This document shows positions 1,269 to 7,712 of a stretch of DNA of 7,797 bases, one piece after another. Source of the stretch: a bacterium Ga0077546 (lineage in GTDB: Bacteria > Cyanobacteriota > Vampirovibrionia > Obscuribacterales > Obscuribacteraceae); NCBI GenBank assembly GCA_001464165.1, contig LNEX01000258.1, positions 1-7,797 of the forward strand. Reading direction: 5' to 3'. Positions within the stretch are counted from its first letter, which is position 1, and the number at the start of each line of letters is the position of its first letter. The position numbers and the translations under genes were made by a program. A model generated the notes under the pieces. It did no database searches, had not been told where the DNA came from, and was given only the letters and a program-made list of their open reading frames with translations.

Positions 1269-2321
1269 ATGGTTACATCTGACTTGCTTGGTTTGGAAAA
1301 ACGATTGCTTCCGCAAGGCCTAAGATTTTTCCGTGAGTTAATATTGCCTGTGGGATTAGTCTTGGCGCTCTCCATTGGCTCAAGTGTGATGAGCGGGGCT
1401 GCCGCCAGTGACGCTGGCACTGCCAAGAATACTGCCAACGCTAATGATCGCTTAGTCGTAGTGCAAGAATCGCGGCCACATATTGCTCGTGCTGGAGTCT
1501 GGCAGACCTATCGCGATCATATTCATCTAAAGTCTGGTCAAGAAAGAAAGCAGTTGTTGTTGACCTTCGCCAATGGTGCTGATGGCCGGCCAAAGATGAC
1601 CGATTTGCGCATCTCATTGGCGGGAAAACCATTTGCAACAATCAAAGATTTTGATGAGGCGGGCAACTTTAGTCGCAGCTTGAACGGACTTATTGGCGCT
1701 GGAGATACGGTCTTGACCAGTGAAATCTTCGGACCATCTGGGGCGCGGCTGGCTTGGAAGCTTCTATCGGAGAAGCCAACCGTGACCTCTGTTCAGCCAA
1801 ACCCTTACGGTCGAGATGACATATTAATTATTCAGGGAACAAACTTCTCTGACAACAAGCATTCGCTAAAAGTTTATCTGGCTGGCAAATCGGCAGAAGT
1901 GGTCAGTGCTGGGGCGAACCAATTGCAAATGAAGGTCCCAGGTTATATTCCTGCTGGCGATCAAGACTTAGTTGTGTCAGTTGACTCGGCCAAGAGTAAC
2001 GCTTTTAAGATTAAGGCTAGGCCAAACATTTACTGGATCGATATCACGGCTCAGAGCCCTTCTCAGCCGGTGATGATTCTGGGACGGGGGTTCTCGAAGA
2101 ATCTAGCAGACAATGTGGTTATGGTTGGTCCACATAAAGCCCAAGTGACAGCAGCCAGCCATACTAATCTCACTTTTATCGTCCCAGAGATGCATTTCCC
2201 CCAGCACGGCATGGCAATTACCGTGATCACCAACGGCGTCTCTTCCAAGGAACACTTATCGCTTGATGTTGATTTGCGGAGAGTGCCAAATATCTTCGAT
2301 GCCCCCAAAGTAGTTAAATAG
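1269..2321 (+). CDS. Exported protein with two IPT/TIG-like immunoglobulin-fold domains
   Basis: I do not recognise a named gene. The ATG is preceded by GAGGG at 1261-1265, three bases away. The 350-residue product has a basic N-region (EKRLLPQGLRFFR), a hydrophobic core at about 24-38 and a likely signal-peptidase site after GAAA near residue 46, so it should be exported. Residues about 60-168 form a beta-rich region containing FANGADGRPKMTDLRISLAG. This resembles the NG-x-x-RV-x-x-A-x-x-x-LNG type domain often found ahead of IPT repeats in secreted bacterial proteins. Residues 170-250 start PTVTSVQPNP and contain IIQGTNFSD, a typical IPT/TIG pattern. Residues 252-336 form a second, more divergent copy with MILGRGFSKN. 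Such domains usually mediate surface adhesion or carbohydrate/protein binding, but no catalytic motif is visible. It could be co-transcribed with the transporter, though no functional link is evident. Confidence 0.8.
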   Translation: MVTSDLLGLEKRLLPQGLRFFRELILPVGLVLALSIGSSVMSGAAASDAGTAKNTANANDRLVVVQESRPHIARAGVWQTYRDHIHLKSGQERKQLLLTFANGADGRPKMTDLRISLAGKPFATIKDFDEAGNFSRSLNGLIGAGDTVLTSEIFGPSGARLAWKLLSEKPTVTSVQPNPYGRDDILIIQGTNFSDNKHSLKVYLAGKSAEVVSAGANQLQMKVPGYIPAGDQDLVVSVDSAKSNAFKIKARPNIYWIDITAQSPSQPVMILGRGFSKNLADNVVMVGPHKAQVTAASHTNLTFIVPEMHFPQHGMAITVITNGVSSKEHLSLDVDLRRVPNIFDAPKVVK

Positions 2322-2341
2322 ACTCTTGCGGTCTTATTTAA
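2314..2341. terminator. AT-rich palindrome spanning two convergent stop codons, possible bidirectional terminator
   Basis: TTAAATAGAC at 2314-2323 pairs with GTC-T-TATTTAA at 2331-2341, giving ten base pairs with one bulged T and a seven-base loop. The TAG of the IPT protein (2319-2321) and the TAA of the TPR protein (2334-2336, minus strand) both lie in the arms. The position suits a bidirectional terminator for convergent genes, but the stem has only three G-C pairs and there is no long U run, so intrinsic termination may be weak. Confidence 0.4.
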
Positions 2342-3008
2342 TGAATTTGCACTGATACTCAGCCATCTCGCGAATTTTATCAATTTTTTGATTGTATTCT
2401 TTTTGGATGGCAGCCCTAGTTTCGGGATCTAAATCGTAAATTACAGAACCGTCTGGCTTGATGTATTTGTGTGTGGTTTCGCCGCTGCCATTGCCTTTTT
2501 CCATGCGCTCTTTGCATTCAGCACTGAGCGCGGCAATTTCTTGATTGGCTTTGTCCATGATCAGTTTTTTGCGCTTTGCCGCTTCACCCGATTGAACGTC
2601 GTCGACTCCACCAGTATTGGCAGTTGCGGCCACTGGTGCTGAGCTGGCCGTTGTGGCAGAGCTTGACGAGCCGCTTCTGGCGCTGCCTAATTTTCCCAGA
2701 ATAGTCTGGCAGTATCCGGCGGTGGTGGCGTCTGGATGAGCATCTAGACAAAGTTGATACTCTTGTTTCGCCTGAGCAGATTGGCCGCTGCTCATAAGAA
2801 TGTTGCCAAGGTAGTAGTGGGCGAGGGCAAAGTTCGGATAGGCCTTTACCACTTTTTCAAAGCTGGCCTTCGCCCCTTTGTAGTCTTTTGCAGTGTAAAG
2901 CTTGCACCCTGTTTCAAAATCACCGGCCTGAGCTGGCTTGATTGCAATCAGTGCTATTAGTGTCAGGGTAGCCGCTAGTGCCGGGTTGAAACTTTTCGGT
3001 ATTTTCAC
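2334..3008 (-). CDS. Small secreted TPR-like protein
   Basis: I do not recognise a named gene. The frame is open to an ATG at 3107 (257 residues), but I prefer the GTG at 3008. It has GAGGA at 3014-3018 with a five-base spacer and yields a textbook signal peptide: MKIPKSFNPA, hydrophobic LAATLTLIALIAI, then PAQA before GDF, cleaved after residue 28. The mature protein of about 196 residues has two TPR-like helical hairpins at about 30-105 (GCKLYTAKDYKGAKASFEKV and AHYYLGNILMSSGQSAQAKQ). A Ser/Ala/Thr-rich linker follows at 108-133, then charged helices at about 142-170 and 196-218. Cysteines at 35, 87, 100, 165 and 220 could form disulfides outside the cytoplasm. It lies 73 bases downstream of the LRR gene on the same strand, so the two are probably co-transcribed. 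A scaffold or binding role is likely, and no catalytic motif is seen. Confidence 0.82.
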   Translation of the reverse strand: MKIPKSFNPALAATLTLIALIAIKPAQAGDFETGCKLYTAKDYKGAKASFEKVVKAYPNFALAHYYLGNILMSSGQSAQAKQEYQLCLDAHPDATTAGYCQTILGKLGSARSGSSSSATTASSAPVAATANTGGVDDVQSGEAAKRKKLIMDKANQEIAALSAECKERMEKGNGSGETTHKYIKPDGSVIYDLDPETRAAIQKEYNQKIDKIREMAEYQCKFIK

Positions 3009-3013
3009 TGTTT

Positions 3014-3018
3014 TCCTC
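3014..3018 (-). promoter_or_regulatory. Ribosome binding site that decides the GTG start at 3008
   Basis: On the minus strand GAGGA precedes the GTG at 3008 by five bases. The in-frame ATGs at 3032 and 3107 have no comparable purine-rich site, and both would put a long polar extension ahead of the signal peptide. The 3107 start would also overlap the end of the upstream gene by 26 bases. Confidence 0.6.
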
Positions 3019-3081
3019 GTGTGTGGTGGCATTGTAGTTACTGAAATAATTGTCTTGAAATACAAGTTTTTTGAATCAGAT

Positions 3082-4185
3082 TCATTCAAAGGCTTCTTGG
3101 TAGTCATTGAAGAGTTCTTTCTTCATATTCTCAAAATCTATTTCTAGCTTTGGGAATGTTTTCTTGAGACTAATAACATCTTTGCCTGTAGCTTGTTTCG
3201 GCTCCATTCTTACGCGAACAAGAGCGATTCCCTTGAGGGCTAAAAGGCCTTTGGCATTAGCCGCGGTAAAAGGCATTTTTATTTGTTCTAAATTCTTTAG
3301 TGTTTTCAGCTGCGCGATACCAGTATTAGTTAAATCGTTGTTGTCGCTGATATCTATATATTTAAGCTTTGGGCAGGCTGCTATAGCAGCCATATCAGTG
3401 TCGCGTAGGTGCGCTGAAGGGAGACTCAGTCGTTCTAAATTAGGAAATTTTTTCAGGTCATCAAGGATTTTCTTGTTGAGCTCATTGTGGCCAAGGTGTA
3501 AATTTCGAATATTCTTTTTGCCTGATAGACTGGCTAAAAACTGGCCTTTTACGCGAGTGCGGTCAACAACCAAAGTTACCAGTTGTTGCAGAGGCGCTAG
3601 CTTCGCCATGGTTTCATCGGTAACTTCTGTACCTGTTAGTTCTAAGCGCTTTAGGTTTGTGAAACGAAGAAGTTTTACTACTTCATTTTCTTCAAAAATA
3701 TTGTTGCTCAGTGAGATGCTTGTTACAGCTTCAGCAGGCAGGGTGCAAATTATGTCGACTGGCTTTTCTAGACCCATGAAGTCGGTCGCTATAAAGCATA
3801 TGCCAGTTCCTTTGGTTAGGCGAACAGCGCCGTTGGCCTCAGCAAATTTCTTTGTCGGAGTGTGCTTGTCGCTGTAGTCTGCGCCAATCTCGGCTTCTCC
3901 CACTCGGCCAATTTTGCCTTTAGCTGGAAAGTGCAAGACGTAAAAACTTTCTGGTTTTTGCTTGGAGCTAGTACTGACCAGAGGTTTGCCATTTGGGGTC
4001 GCTTTGACCGGTGGAAGGCTTATTGCCAAGCAAAAGGTAGATAAGAGTGAGGCCGATACGAGGCAGAAAGGTCCAAAGCCGAAGGACAGGCAATAGGAAG
4101 GCAAGAGCTTGCTTGCCTGCTGGCAAGCGCACACGGCTTTGGCTGAGGCCGCTCTCCTGTTGACAGTAGTTTGCTCGGTAGCCAT
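3082..4185 (-). CDS. Leucine-rich repeat protein, membrane-anchored or exported
   Basis: I do not recognise a named gene. The ATG at 4185 is preferred over the TTG at 4206 because AGAGG lies at 4190-4194 and the TTG would overlap the predicted -10 box. The 367-residue product begins with a Cys-rich polar stretch (residues 1-28), then a hydrophobic segment at about 29-57 that acts as a signal peptide or anchor. Cleavage near VKA-TP at 62 is possible. No proper lipobox is seen. A region of unclear fold (about 78-150) is followed by leucine-rich repeats at about 152-350 of the 24-residue kind. Examples are LKRLELTGTEVTDETMAKL, LERLSLPSAHLRDTDMAAI and LKYIDISDNNDLTNTGIAQL. These repeats form a curved binding surface for proteins or other ligands, and the partner is unknown. 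It is the first gene of a probable two-gene operon with the TPR-like protein. Confidence 0.85.
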   Translation of the reverse strand: MATEQTTVNRRAASAKAVCACQQASKLLPSYCLSFGFGPFCLVSASLLSTFCLAISLPPVKATPNGKPLVSTSSKQKPESFYVLHFPAKGKIGRVGEAEIGADYSDKHTPTKKFAEANGAVRLTKGTGICFIATDFMGLEKPVDIICTLPAEAVTSISLSNNIFEENEVVKLLRFTNLKRLELTGTEVTDETMAKLAPLQQLVTLVVDRTRVKGQFLASLSGKKNIRNLHLGHNELNKKILDDLKKFPNLERLSLPSAHLRDTDMAAIAACPKLKYIDISDNNDLTNTGIAQLKTLKNLEQIKMPFTAANAKGLLALKGIALVRVRMEPKQATGKDVISLKKTFPKLEIDFENMKKELFNDYQEAFE

Positions 4186-4189
4186 GACG

Positions 4190-4210
4190 CCTCTAAAGAT
4201 TGCCAATTAT
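4190..4210 (-). promoter_or_regulatory. Promoter -10 box and ribosome binding site of the LRR gene
   Basis: Read on the minus strand, a perfect TATAAT lies at 4205-4210, and AGAGG at 4190-4194 precedes the ATG at 4185 by four bases. Transcription would begin near 4198, giving a very short leader. No convincing -35 hexamer is found 16-18 bases upstream, so the promoter may be activator-dependent or the match may be chance. Confidence 0.45.
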
Positions 4211-4248
4211 AGTCGCACGGTTAGGCTTAATTAGTCTTTTCTAGCAAA

Positions 4249-4287
4249 TCAGCCTTTCGGCTGAAGGACAATTGCTCCTCCGGCTGA
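4249..4287. repeat. Inverted repeat with an extra direct copy of GGCTGA in the divergent regulatory region
   Basis: TCAGCC at 4249-4254 and GGCTGA at 4259-4264 form a perfect six-base-pair hairpin with loop TTTC. CGGCTGA recurs at 4281-4287, so the left arm can pair with either right arm. The element lies between the divergent LRR and oxygenase genes (gap 4186-4365) and could be an operator or a small leader structure. No clear sigma-70 promoter was found for the rightward operon. CATAAT at 4321-4326 is the best -10 candidate, without a matching -35. Confidence 0.35.
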
Positions 4288-4346
4288 TGCAGAATCTCTT
4301 TATACCTGAAACCATTGCAGCATAATTCACTTTTTCATCACCTTAC

Positions 4347-4356
4347 AGGGGCGGGA
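4347..4356 (+). promoter_or_regulatory. Ribosome binding site for the PaaA-like gene
   Basis: AGGGGCGGGA is purine-rich, and its GGGA (4353-4356) ends nine bases before the ATG at 4366. It lies inside the longer open frame that begins with TTG at 4315, which argues for initiation at 4366. An in-frame TTG at 4360 is a weaker alternative. Confidence 0.5.
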
Positions 4357-4365
4357 ATATTGACA

Positions 4366-5175
4366 ATGCAAACCTACGACGCAGGCGATAAGTTGCCAGA
4401 TGAATACAAGGCCGCCCTTATTGACCTTTTATCCTTTCAGGCTGACTCTGAATTTGCTGGTGGACAACGCGTAGAAGAAAACATGAAATACGCAACTAGG
4501 CCGGAAGAAGCCTATCGTCTTGGCAAAAAGTTTATGGAAGAGATTGGCCATGGCTGGTATTGCTGGGAAATTCTTGCGCCCCTAGGAATAGATGTAAACG
4601 CCCGAGTGATGCACTTAGTACAAAATCGCGACAATCCAGATCCAAAGAAAGTGCGAGTAATCAACGGTTTTCGCAAAGAAAATTGGGCTCCAATGTTTGA
4701 GTGTTGGGCCGACGTTGCTATGTTTTCCACTGCCGTCACACCGGCTGCTGTAGCATTCCTTGGGCAGTACCGACAATCAAGCTATTTGCCCTGGGCTAAG
4801 GTATCTGAGCGCATTTGGGCCGAAGAGAAAGGACATTTAGCATTTGGCGTTTGGGCTTCTAAGCGCGTGCTAGAGCTTGATGGCGAAAAAGGCCGTGAGC
4901 AATTGCAGGCTGCTGTTGCGAAGTTTATGCAAATTGGGCTTGGCTTTGCCGGACGTCCTGCTGACGATAGTGAGCACTTTGCTCGCTACTTTGAATATGG
5001 TTTGAAAATCAAGACGGCACAGCAAATTCAAGACGAGTATATGGAAGTAGTGGAGAAACGACTGAGAGAAATTGGCTTGGAAATGCCTAAAGACATACAG
5101 CCTAACTATGATATGCGCATGGGCTATGCTCAATCAAAGCCGCTTTCGGCTGCTGGTACCAAGGGCGGGAAATAG
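4366..5175 (+). CDS. PaaA-like ferritin-fold diiron oxygenase subunit (Phenylacetic acid catabolic protein family)
   Basis: This is a cytoplasmic protein of 269 residues. The family contains PaaA, which epoxidises phenylacetyl-CoA, and the related BoxB, which epoxidises benzoyl-CoA. Ligand motifs are present on four helices. They are Glu29 (QADSE), Glu59 and His62 (EEIGH), the helix beginning WAD at 114-116, and Glu154 and His157 (EEKGH). The Glu29-Glu59 spacing of 30 equals that of E. coli PaaA as I remember it. From WAD to EEKGH the two align without gaps, sharing SY-x-P. In that alignment the expected helix-3 Asp is Thr125 (TPAAV against DGAAI), so one iron ligand seems altered. It is shorter than PaaA (about 310 residues). 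It heads a tight operon with a paralogue and a ferredoxin. The substrate is probably a CoA thioester by family, but this is unproven. Confidence 0.82.
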   Translation: MQTYDAGDKLPDEYKAALIDLLSFQADSEFAGGQRVEENMKYATRPEEAYRLGKKFMEEIGHGWYCWEILAPLGIDVNARVMHLVQNRDNPDPKKVRVINGFRKENWAPMFECWADVAMFSTAVTPAAVAFLGQYRQSSYLPWAKVSERIWAEEKGHLAFGVWASKRVLELDGEKGREQLQAAVAKFMQIGLGFAGRPADDSEHFARYFEYGLKIKTAQQIQDEYMEVVEKRLREIGLEMPKDIQPNYDMRMGYAQSKPLSAAGTKGGK

Positions 5176-5178
5176 CCC

Positions 5179-5961
5179 ATGACAGCTCAAAGCCTAGGCG
5201 CACAATTAAGTGCTGAAGATACACTTCTGCTTGAGCAAATTGAGAATGGTGGCACCATTAGTTGCTGGCAAGAAGCCGGTGGCCGCTTTAAAGAGCTGGC
5301 CACCGGCATTCTCTTGCAGTTTGCCGATTCTCAAATGGCTGGTGCTGCTGGCTTCGCGCCCTTTATAAATAAGGCCACTACAATTGAAGACCGGCTCAAT
5401 ATGAGCACTATGGTCTCGCAAAAATTGAGCATGGCCAAGGAGAGCTACGAGGTCATTAGCGGCTTGAATTTCAATGTTGAGCGCTACCTCAGCAGCCACT
5501 GTTTTGAATCCCGGGTGCTAAGAGATTCCTTTTTAGGCTTCTCGCGCTCGTCAGCAGACAAGCGTCTCAATGCTCTTCTTTACCCCTTAGAAGGCTTTGA
5601 AGACATGCTCGTCTTTACTTATTTGCTTGGAGTGATGGCGCGACTAATGCTTGGTGAGTTTGCTGACGCCAAATTCACACCACTAAAAGAGTTGGCTTGT
5701 AGCTGCTTGCCCCTCGAAACTGCCCACGCCAATTTTGCCCTGTTGGCCCTGCGGCGCAAGGCTGAGTCTCACAAGAAGCAAATCGAGCTTTCTTACAAAT
5801 ACTGGTACCCCCGGGTCGAAACTTCGGCTGGTCCTACTGACTCGCTGCGCAATCATTGGCACAAACGCTTTGGTTTGAAGCACTCTGATAATTTGGAAAT
5901 CAAAGAGGAGTGGAAGAAGGAAGTAAGCCTTGAACTGAAAAAGCTTGCACTAGAGCTATGA
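5179..5961 (+). CDS. PaaC-like paralogue of the diiron subunit with a degenerate metal site
   Basis: The product has 260 residues and is likely the non-catalytic structural partner of the preceding subunit, as PaaC is for PaaA. It shares the helical pattern but keeps few metal ligands. QADSE of the neighbour becomes FADSQ (Gln52). The ExxH of helix 2 becomes Lys82-x-x-Met85 in SQKLSM. The helix-3 position is Gly151. Only the helix-4 Glu180 and His183 (LETAH) remain. Homology is inferred from this motif-by-motif match and from position, because overall identity looks low. The ATG lies three bases after the previous stop, with GGGCGGGAAA just upstream, so the two are translationally coupled. 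It ends in an ATGA overlap with the ferredoxin gene. The C-terminal 60 residues are charged and rich in Lys/Glu. It could instead be a divergent active enzyme of another ferritin-like family, but loss of most ligands argues against that. Confidence 0.7.
   Translation: MTAQSLGAQLSAEDTLLLEQIENGGTISCWQEAGGRFKELATGILLQFADSQMAGAAGFAPFINKATTIEDRLNMSTMVSQKLSMAKESYEVISGLNFNVERYLSSHCFESRVLRDSFLGFSRSSADKRLNALLYPLEGFEDMLVFTYLLGVMARLMLGEFADAKFTPLKELACSCLPLETAHANFALLALRRKAESHKKQIELSYKYWYPRVETSAGPTDSLRNHWHKRFGLKHSDNLEIKEEWKKEVSLELKKLALEL
5275..5307 (+). repeat. Perfect GC-rich inverted repeat inside the PaaC-like gene
   Basis: GCCGGTGGCC at 5275-5284 and GGCCACCGGC at 5298-5307 are exact inverted copies of ten bases with a 13-base spacer. 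Three inner pairs (GCT with AGC) can extend the stem with one bulged base. It encodes residues around AGGRFKELATG, about 100 bases after the start codon, and has no U run. It may affect mRNA stability or translation, or be incidental. Confidence 0.5.
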
Positions 5962-6191
5962 GGCAGCATGTTACCGACCCAGAAATCTGTATTGGTTGCT
6001 CGGCCTGCGAACTAGCATGCCCACTTAAGGCAATCAAGTCTATTCTTGGTCGTTACTGTGTAGATGCTTCTGTCTGCGAGGGTTGCGGCAAGTGTATTGA
6101 GGAGTGTCCAACTTCAGCAGCCGATTGTTTTATCGAAGTAACTGAGCCATATTCACAAGACCAGCAGTCGCAGTGGACAAGTCTGCCCTAG
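5958..6191 (+). CDS. 2x[4Fe-4S] ferredoxin, resembling the N-terminal domain of BoxA
   Basis: This is a soluble electron carrier of 77 residues with two complete CxxCxxCxxxCP motifs: Cys11, 14, 17, 21 (CIGCSACELACP) and Cys40, 43, 46, 50 (CEGCGKCIEECP). Two further cysteines, 34 and 57, lie outside the motifs. The start VTDPEICIGC, the spacing between motifs and the ending CPTSAAD resemble the ferredoxin domain at the start of BoxA, the reductase of benzoyl-CoA epoxidase. Here it is free-standing, with no flavin/NADPH domain attached. Its ATG overlaps the previous stop (ATGA), so its production is tied to the two oxygenase subunits and it is plausibly their electron donor. An external ferredoxin reductase would then be needed. 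The last 15 residues are polar and probably disordered. The ferredoxin call is firm; the partner is inferred from context. Confidence 0.9.
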   Translation: MRQHVTDPEICIGCSACELACPLKAIKSILGRYCVDASVCEGCGKCIEECPTSAADCFIEVTEPYSQDQQSQWTSLP

Positions 6192-6281
6192 ATTCTTTGC
6201 TGTGTTGTTGAAAAGTGAGTGTGTTCTAGTTGAAGCCAAACCTGTATAGTTGCTTTTGCTAGATTCAGGGATGCTTTCAAA

Positions 6282-6878
6282 GTGCAAGAAGGCGAGTTAA
6301 GCAAAATACCAAAGCTAGGTGCGCCAGGAGCTGGCCTGCCATTCTTTGAGATGTTTTTGCAGAAGGTCGTGATTTTTCCCATGCTCTGCAAGATCACTAC
6401 TTTTGACAGCGCTATTAGAATTTTTGAGAAAGAATCAAAGCTGTTGTTGCGCGAAGTGGCACTTATACCTGTGCCACTGCGAGATAAACGCATTTTGGTG
6501 CCAAGGCTGCCAGCCATTGAGGATAGCTCTCGCTTTTGGTCGGCGGCAATGGTACTTGAGCACTTAATTATTGTCGGCAGTCAAATCAAGATAGTGGCGC
6601 AACATCTTGCTCGTGGCGAAACGCCTCCTGGTGTAGCTGATGTAGCGGCGGTGAAGCCGCCAGGAGATTTGGCTGGGCCGGTCTGTATCGAACAATTCAA
6701 AATTTATAGCGATGATTTTCTCAAGACCGTGCGCTCACTGCGCGGTGATCAGTGGGCCACTGCTACTTTCAATCATCCCTGGTTTGGCCCCCTGACTTTG
6801 CATAAGTGGATGTGCCTGGCAGCAATTCACCAGCGTATTCATCGCCGCCAAATCGAAGCCATAATAAGACTGCTTTGA
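6282..6878 (+). CDS. DinB-superfamily (DUF1569-like) four-helix protein
   Basis: This protein of about 198 residues has no named function. Its central and C-terminal parts match the DinB/DUF1569 fold pattern. The helix LPAIEDSSRFWSAAMVLEHL supplies His94. The loop HPWFGPLTLHKW is typical of DUF1569. The last helix HQRIHRRQIEAI supplies His183 and His187. Together these form the three-histidine metal site of the superfamily, which includes thiol-dependent transferases and many uncharacterised proteins. The start is uncertain. GTG at 6282 has AGGG at 6267-6270, eleven bases upstream, and the frame is open back to a stop at 6231 without a better codon. The gene lies 90 bases after the ferredoxin on the same strand and may be the fourth gene of that operon, although the gap leaves room for its own promoter. 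Its stop is 18 bases from the convergent SDR gene. Confidence 0.75.
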   Translation: MQEGELSKIPKLGAPGAGLPFFEMFLQKVVIFPMLCKITTFDSAIRIFEKESKLLLREVALIPVPLRDKRILVPRLPAIEDSSRFWSAAMVLEHLIIVGSQIKIVAQHLARGETPPGVADVAAVKPPGDLAGPVCIEQFKIYSDDFLKTVRSLRGDQWATATFNHPWFGPLTLHKWMCLAAIHQRIHRRQIEAIIRLL

Positions 6879-6896
6879 ACAACCCGGGTCTAAAGT

Positions 6897-7712
6897 CTAA
6901 AGGAAGAAGTCTTTCATTAATTTACTGCCGGGGCTGACAGCATACTGCTCTAAGTCGCTAACACCGGCCTTAGCTAATACTTCAGTGTCAATGAAGAAGT
7001 TGCCGCTGCACTGCTCGGCTGGCTGAGTGAAAATCCAGTGAGCGGCATCTGCCACTATATTTGGTGTGCGGGAACATTTGAGGGCTTGATCTCCACCGAG
7101 CAAATTTTTCACTGCGGCTGTGGCTATGGCTGTTTCGGGCCAGAGTGAGTTGACGGCAATTTGGCCCTTTAGTTCTTCAGCCATGCCCAGGGTGCACATG
7201 CTCATGCCATATTTAGCCATGGTGTAGGCTACGTGTGGCGCAAACCAGCGTTTGTCCATGTTGAGCGGGGGCGATAGGTTGAGAATGTGTCCATTGCTGG
7301 CGTTGGCTAAATGAGGAATCGCAACTTTGGAACACAAGAAAGTGCCACGGGCATTGACTTGATTCATCAAATCAAAGCGCTTCATTTCGGTTTCGAGCGT
7401 GCCAGTAAGATTGATGGCGCTGGCATTGTTGACGAGAATATCGAGGGCGCCGAAGTGCTCAACAGTTTGGGCTATGGCTGCTTTGACTTGCTCTTCTTCG
7501 CGCACATCGCATTGAATCGCTAGGGCTTTACCTCCGGCTGCTTCAATTTCAAGAGCAGCTGAATGAATTGTGCCTGGCAGTTTTGGATGCTTCACCACGG
7601 TTTTGGCGGCAATGGCAATGCAGGCGCCGTCGCGGGCTGCTCGCAGTGCTATGGCGAGGCCTATGCCTCTTGAGGCTCCAGTAATGAAGAGAACTTTTCC
7701 GGCGAGGCTCAT
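6897..7712 (-). CDS. Short-chain dehydrogenase/reductase, HSDL2-like
   Basis: This is a Rossmann-fold NAD(P)-dependent oxidoreductase of 271 residues. Visible motifs are the cofactor loop TGASRGIG (11-18), the stabilising NNAS (95-98), Asn120 in QVNARGT, catalytic Ser147 in NLSPPLN, and Tyr163-x-x-x-Lys167 in AYTMAKYGMS. Unusual stretches such as AAKTVVKHPKLPGTIHSAA, ILNLSPPLN and WPETAI are hallmarks of the HSDL2 clade, whose animal members carry an extra SCP2 lipid-binding domain. That domain is absent here and the length is that of bacterial relatives. The substrate is unknown; a fatty-acyl or similar hydroxy/keto compound is likely by family. AGGAAG at 7718-7723 precedes the ATG by five bases. 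The start also overlaps the stop of the preceding gene (ATGA), so the two are translationally coupled and probably work in one pathway. Confidence 0.92.
   Translation of the reverse strand: MSLAGKVLFITGASRGIGLAIALRAARDGACIAIAAKTVVKHPKLPGTIHSAALEIEAAGGKALAIQCDVREEEQVKAAIAQTVEHFGALDILVNNASAINLTGTLETEMKRFDLMNQVNARGTFLCSKVAIPHLANASNGHILNLSPPLNMDKRWFAPHVAYTMAKYGMSMCTLGMAEELKGQIAVNSLWPETAIATAAVKNLLGGDQALKCSRTPNIVADAAHWIFTQPAEQCSGNFFIDTEVLAKAGVSDLEQYAVSPGSKLMKDFFL

Follow-up and report, generated by a model that had tools for sequence, protein, structure and literature searches.

What kind of enzyme is encoded by a small gene cassette that places a relative of PaaA, the oxygenase subunit of phenylacetyl-coenzyme A (CoA) epoxidase, close to a ferredoxin resembling part of BoxA? 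The question is raised by three genes at positions 4366..6191 of a 7,797-nucleotide stretch of DNA (hereafter the window, meaning this stretch at its full length) from the bacterium Ga0077546, which belongs to the Obscuribacterales (Cyanobacteriota). To our knowledge, PaaA and BoxB are the only PF05138-type oxygenases characterised so far from hybrid aromatic pathways, and we know of no aromatic breakdown in the non-photosynthetic relatives of cyanobacteria. Searches of one open-access library yielded no published description of such a cassette. We consider, with a probability of about one half, that the cassette specifies a divergent aryl-CoA ring oxygenase, most likely for phenylacetyl-CoA or a close relative, that is served by a BoxA-like electron donor. 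The open reading frame (ORF) calls and the sequence confirm the layout given in a preliminary description of this locus: ORF1 and ORF2 are separated by 3 bases, and ORF2 and ORF3 overlap in an ATGA.

4366..5175, plus strand: ORF1, 269 amino acids, predicted PaaA-fold oxygenase-like subunit from a separate PF05138 clade
4450..4836, plus strand: metal-site codons of ORF1, Glu29, Glu59, His62, Thr125 (4738-4740; the place of PaaA Asp126), Glu154 and His157
5179..5961, plus strand: ORF2, 260 amino acids, degenerate PF05138 subunit
5958..6191, plus strand: ORF3, 77 amino acids, ferredoxin with two [4Fe-4S] clusters, a homologue of the N-terminal part of BoxA

ORF1 might alternatively start at an in-frame TTG (position 4315); its aligned relatives (n = 19) begin at the position of the ATG in the window or three residues earlier.

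ORF1 passes the Pfam threshold for PF05138 (85.6 bits; cut-off 28.5) and reaches 63.4 bits against the PaaA equivalog model TIGR02156, below the cut-off of 280 bits. When compared with the iron ligands of PaaA (Glu42, Glu72, His75, Asp126, Glu155 and His158) in a register on which HMMER, MAFFT and hhalign agree, it retains five of the six, and these five are invariant in the 121 sequences counted, namely 120 listed of 205 matches together with ORF1 itself. Equally invariant (121/121) is Thr125-Pro126, whose threonine occupies the place of Asp126. The preliminary view of ORF1 as a PF05138-type diiron subunit therefore stands with respect to the family and has to be given up with respect to the standard six-ligand site. 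The lysine bridge described for PaaA (PMC4498308) is partly dismantled in ORF1: the lysine is kept, Glu49 is exchanged for valine and Asp126 for threonine. We have withdrawn a reading of the PaaA pocket residues Lys103 and Phe108 as changed in ORF1, since MAFFT and hhalign place this loop differently. Structure modelling of the two subunits, based on 20 and 13 sequences, indicates that ORF1 has the PaaA fold and that this fold is unchanged, at 22% identity to PaaA of the 1,2-phenylacetyl-CoA epoxidase PaaABCE from E. coli (PDB 3pvr, 4iit). Aldehyde-deformylating oxygenases, AurF, VlmB and others emerged from the fold searches as more distant fold relatives only.

A profile search of GTDB species genomes with ORF1 gave 84 confirmed stretches, the best 80 of which correspond to 79 distinct loci; we examined their flanks over up to 8 kb. 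In the window and at 22 of these loci, ORF1 is followed by an eight-cysteine ferredoxin; ORF2 lies between the two genes in 14 of these 23 loci, and the ferredoxin comes directly after ORF1 in nine. Ferredoxin and title served to group the 22 as Obscuribacterales-type loci: 18 belong to genomes assigned to the order that includes Ca. Obscuribacter phosphatis (G004), and one (L007) carries the title Proteobacteria. By title, the remaining 57 loci derive mostly from Alpha-, Beta- and Gammaproteobacteria. A separate search of 53 genomes from the order of Ca. Obscuribacter phosphatis detected ORF1 in 23 and the ferredoxin in the identical 23, always as one cassette, with ORF2 present in 14; these counts are uncorrected for kinship. 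Recurrence in 22 further loci and in an identical set of 23 among 53 genomes means that the order ORF1-(ORF2)-ferredoxin is not due to chance. Outside the cassette, a protein encoded within 5 kb is common to only 29 of the 253 pairs of the 23 loci; hence the linkage of ORF1 and the ferredoxin has outlived rearrangement of its flanks. Elsewhere in the phylum, ORF1 was found at E 1e-30 in a single one of 292 sampled genomes, the centre genome of that sample.

Phylogenetic trees of PF05138 rows, which contain long branches and from which no root was inferred, were calculated in a quick version (83 rows) and a careful version (61 rows; PaaC and BoxB left out as long branches). Of 83 aligned ORF1 rows, 30 entered the quick tree and 19 the careful one; these 83 ORF1 rows include two from L065 and repeat copies in L082 and L087, and L091 and the A2P protein of L082 (for A2P, see below) were omitted as repeats of L009 and L058. 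The two rows of L065, a metagenome-assembled genome (MAG) titled Paenibacillaceae, are near-identical ORF1 copies on the plus strand (7983-8765 and 10222-10998), about 1.5 kb apart. ORF1 forms a single clade (support 100 in the quick and 100/100 in the careful tree) on a long branch of 2.18 changes per column, and PaaA a clade of its own apart from it (99 and 99/99). In the quick tree PaaC is separate, and so is BoxB (support 100). Among the 53 genomes of the order, 20 carry a member of a further PF05138 clade, T3. The separate clade with conserved synteny that the preliminary description had named as a sign of novelty is thus what we found, since ORF1 lies outside PaaA, PaaC and BoxB and the gene order recurs.

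These data bear directly on the simplest explanation of the locus, an ordinary split paa cluster in which ORF1 and ORF2 are PaaA and PaaC and paaB, paaD and paaE lie elsewhere. ORF1 and ORF2 do have the Pfam family and the fold in common with PaaA and PaaC; however, ORF1 reaches 63 of the 280 bits required by TIGR02156, ORF1 and ORF2 fall into separate clades, the ligand pattern differs, and PaaB, for which the preliminary description had advised a search, turned up in none of the 18 related genomes searched, all of which are among the 23 ORF1 genomes of the order. We reject this explanation, which we regard as highly improbable; the arrangement that the preliminary description had set against novelty, in which the subunits would fall into the clades of PaaA and PaaC and the remaining paa genes would lie elsewhere, was not obtained. 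PaaE and PaaD were not among the nine window proteins scanned against Pfam, and no genome search was aimed at either.

ORF3 carries eight cysteines in two CxxCxxCxxxC motifs. Its best NCBIfam match is TIGR03224 (BoxA; model positions 2-80, E 1.6e-18), and the similarity in the alignment with BoxA spans the clusters and extends somewhat further. Taken together with the end of the protein after 77 amino acids, that is, without the C-terminal NADPH/flavin adenine dinucleotide (FAD) reductase domain of BoxA, these findings substantiate the stand-alone BoxA-like two-cluster ferredoxin proposed beforehand. In each of the 18 related genomes, the gene that matches the full-length BoxA model best is the ferredoxin gene at the cassette position, and no match to TIGR03224 over its cut-off was recovered from any of them; a full BoxA from a Rhodocyclales genome scored 698 bits in the same search and adjoins a 481-amino-acid protein 72% identical to an annotated BoxB. 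Among the flanks of the other 57 loci, the search for a BoxA-like ferredoxin gave one weak match only, to a longer protein of L065 (E 5.6e-4, 19 bits). An apparent fusion of ORF1 and the ferredoxin (P0111) was not used as evidence for their pairing: the join lacks the last part of ORF1 and the first cysteine of the ferredoxin and occurs on a single contig of 1510 bases, and we therefore treat it as probably a deletion or an assembly chimera.

The second subunit is less easily placed. ORF2 scores 27.2 bits against PF05138, marginally under the cut-off of 28.5; of its relatives in 11 Obscuribacterales genomes, 10 exceed this value. No match was found in NCBIfam, including the PaaC model TIGR02158. 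Four ligand places are exchanged (Gln52, Lys82, Met85 and Gly151), and Glu180 and His183 are kept, so that the paralogue said to lack most ligands has indeed lost four of six while preserving the glutamate and the histidine of the last motif. ORF2 is the sister of a proteobacterial clade, A2P (support 97; 100/98), and not of PaaC; A2P keeps four ligands, in contrast to the two of ORF2. Its profile found SSO1313 of Sulfolobus solfataricus (PDB 4mud; 3.8e-15) as the best match in a PDB sequence search. This protein shares the PF05138 fold and differs in being titled a degradation-like protein, with no function seen, at 17-22% identity. The five structure models of ORF2 range in predicted local distance difference test (pLDDT) scores from 45.8 to 79.9. 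Absent from 9 of the 23 ORF1 genomes, ORF2 can no longer be counted as an obligatory part of the cassette.

Could these bacteria provide an aryl-CoA substrate? A PaaK homologue, which the preliminary description had suggested to look for elsewhere in the genome, is present in 23 of 23 ORF1 genomes (468-612 bits; curated cut-off 646). Its presence does not discriminate as an indicator of ORF1, since 45 of the 53 genomes of the order carry a PaaK-like gene. A script-based inspection of these 45 PaaK neighbourhoods revealed two to three enoyl-CoA hydratase-family genes after PaaK in 18 of the 19 genomes that have ORF1 but not T3; the contig of the exception, G006, ends there. In Ca. Obscuribacter phosphatis the hydratases comprise a PaaG-like and a PaaF-like protein and one nearer to MenB/BadI, accompanied by an EthD-family gene. 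T3 is found immediately before an operon of the PaaK-like, EthD-family and three hydratase genes in 13 of the 45 PaaK loci; examples are L088 (9372-10121, minus strand), L089 (9584-10330, minus strand), L092 and L099-L103. It keeps all six PaaA ligands and may well be an aryl-CoA epoxidase that is still uncharacterised. ORF1 and T3 occur together in 4 of the 53 genomes (expected 8.7, p 0.01, uncorrected for kinship), an indication that the cassette can take the place of T3.

Support of another kind comes from the proteobacterial relatives. Uncharacterised proteins from Novispirillum, Marinobacterium and Minwuiaceae are related to ORF1 at 59-63% identity. The 57 loci outside the Obscuribacterales group contain a PaaX-type regulator in 45 cases (one was scanned and scores above its model cut-off), an FAD-dependent reductase in 43 and a protein of about 135 amino acids in 49; all three are found in 36 loci and none in four. 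The gene for the latter protein lies on the strand of ORF1 in 45 of its 49 loci (for instance L029, 8989-9390, and L037, 8803-9207, both plus strand), and three representatives scanned against Pfam gave no match. We discarded it as a stand-in for PaaB after an hhalign comparison of 37 sequences with five PaaB proteins (probability 0.02 of 100, E 0.99). A2P is the first gene of an operon with PaaG and PaaK in Marinobacterium and Novispirillum, which by sequence reading also includes PaaH, PaaI and PaaJ; the opposite strand encodes a flavodoxin and PaaN. The Marinobacterium proteins PaaG (428 bits; cut-off 345) and PaaN_2 (890; 579) pass their thresholds, and the flavodoxin (156; 160) narrowly misses. 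PaaK is above its cut-off in 5 of 5 proteobacterial genomes, of which four lack PaaB; Novispirillum has an additional canonical paaA-B-C. Given this context, ORF1 and A2P are likely to form a phenylacetyl-CoA oxygenase in the proteobacterial genomes without PaaB. Azospirillum soli, whose genome carries ORF1 and no second PF05138 protein, is an exception to this pairing; there (L087, 6032-8314, minus strand), PaaX and ORF1 lie beside genes for a PaaE/BenC-like reductase and for a 364-amino-acid protein that has no match in NCBIfam.

Within the window, the cassette is followed by genes for a DinB_2 protein (6282-6875, plus strand) and a PRK08278-type short-chain dehydrogenase/reductase (6897-7712, minus strand), a kind of protein with similar representatives in seven other loci, two of them proteobacterial. 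Upstream genes at 13-1215 and 1269-2321 (plus strand) and at 2334-3107 and 3082-4206 (minus strand) encode SulP-STAS transporter, TIG-domain, TPR and LRR proteins; we noticed nothing that would connect them with the cassette. The cassette and its downstream genes are 84-94% identical in DNA to L001-L003, one of which is titled Cyanobacteriota bacterium, in keeping with an origin of the window from an Obscuribacterales-type (Cyanobacteriota, Melainabacteria) genome. A search with window positions 4200-6900 found no matches in plasmid DNA, and the ORF1 protein matched 53 plasmid records, all at less than 60% identity and the 20 listed at 25-28%.

How, then, would the cassette work as an aryl-CoA oxygenase? 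We infer its metal binding, subunit pairing, electron path, substrate and product from the comparisons above. ORF1 would be the catalytic subunit, holding iron in a PaaA-type four-helix site minus one terminal carboxylate and activating O2. ORF2, where present, might act as a metal-free partner in the role of PaaC, with a lysine at the place of a metal-binding glutamate. ORF3 would pass low-potential electrons singly from a general ferredoxin reductase to ORF1, a route that would replace PaaE, the [2Fe-2S]-flavin reductase of PaaABCE, as well as the flavin half of BoxA. The PaaK-like ligase would supply the aryl-CoA, and PaaG- and PaaF-like members of the enoyl-CoA hydratase family, whose genes lie at other sites in these genomes, would process the epoxide.

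Several observations weigh against such an assignment. The exchange of Asp126 for threonine in every member examined means that canonical diiron chemistry is not assured. ORF2 is missing from nine cassette genomes, and Azospirillum soli has ORF1 without a second PF05138 protein. A reductase feeding the cassette ferredoxin was not identified when the Obscuribacterales genomes were searched with the proteobacterial FAD reductase, which yielded partial matches only (at most 36.5 bits, in 17 of 18 genomes). Neither PaaX nor the reductase nor the gene for the 135-amino-acid protein stands by ORF1 in any of the 23 Obscuribacterales loci, as far as their flanks of up to 8 kb reach. The PaaK-, PaaG- and PaaF-like proteins of this order score under their curated cut-offs, and in all 23 ORF1 genomes the cassette sits on a contig other than that of the PaaK-like gene, most Obscuribacterales genomes being titled MAGs or bins with completeness not stated. 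Furthermore, 14 of the 53 genomes are devoid of any PF05138 protein, yet 12 of these have the PaaK-like gene and 10 also the hydratases, so the PaaK operon does not require the cassette oxygenase. This finding, like the six T3 genomes without a PaaK match at E 1e-60, also speaks against a replacement of T3; four genomes carry both ORF1 and T3.

The separate contigs and the persistence of the PaaK operon without a PF05138 protein would also fit with a redox enzyme of ORF1 and the ferredoxin for a substrate other than the product of the PaaK-like ligase, for instance an accessory hydroxylase or desaturase whose likeness to PaaA reflects common descent only. We regard this as rather unlikely, as the proteobacterial relatives are mostly situated near PaaX and, via the kin of ORF2, near PaaG, PaaK and PaaN, and as ORF1 tends to be absent where T3, which adjoins PaaK, is present. 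The invariant Thr125-Pro126, the long branch of the ORF1 clade and the partly dismantled lysine bridge raise a different doubt: with the aspartate exchanged for threonine, ORF1 might not be a PaaA-type monooxygenase at all and might conduct other, ferredoxin-fed chemistry at its altered iron site, such as an oxidase reaction, the deoxygenation of an epoxide or a reaction of mono- or hetero-metal type. However, none of the other five ligands varies and the modelled fold is unchanged, and we judge such altered chemistry to be quite improbable.

An aryl-CoA ring oxygenase with a BoxA-like donor would resemble BoxAB, the benzoyl-CoA 2,3-epoxidase, in that ORF3 and the first 80 residues of BoxA are homologous. 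It differs in that the cassette ferredoxin is without the flavin reductase domain and that ORF1 stands outside the BoxB clade, at slightly over half the length of BoxB, an enzyme that functions without a structural subunit (PMC4498308). From the proteobacterial loci it differs in possessing this ferredoxin where those have the FAD reductase, the flavodoxin and the protein of about 135 amino acids. A bolder proposal, which we put forward tentatively and consider doubtful as it stands, is that ORF1 represents a third type of aryl-CoA oxygenase beside PaaA and BoxB. Its second terminal carboxylate would have been lost (Asp to Thr-Pro), its donor would depend on lineage, with a BoxA-like ferredoxin serving the Obscuribacterales and a flavodoxin plus FAD reductase the Proteobacteria, and the open iron position might lead to an outcome other than the epoxidation catalysed by PaaA.

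PaaA and PaaC have been proposed as markers of the phenylacetate pathway (PMC13186573). The same paper reports that both are kept by each of the 825 genomes of PaaK type that it covers, and its main text does not contain the terms Cyanobacteri, PaaN or flavodoxin. Clades such as that of ORF1 could consequently distort surveys that rely on these markers, unless they are distinguished. A further oxygenase branch with an altered iron site, found in environmental bacteria that include relatives of cyanobacteria, would mean that both ligand set and electron supply can be exchanged in PF05138 oxygenases, and it would account for genomes that possess PaaK, PaaG and PaaX in the absence of PaaB.
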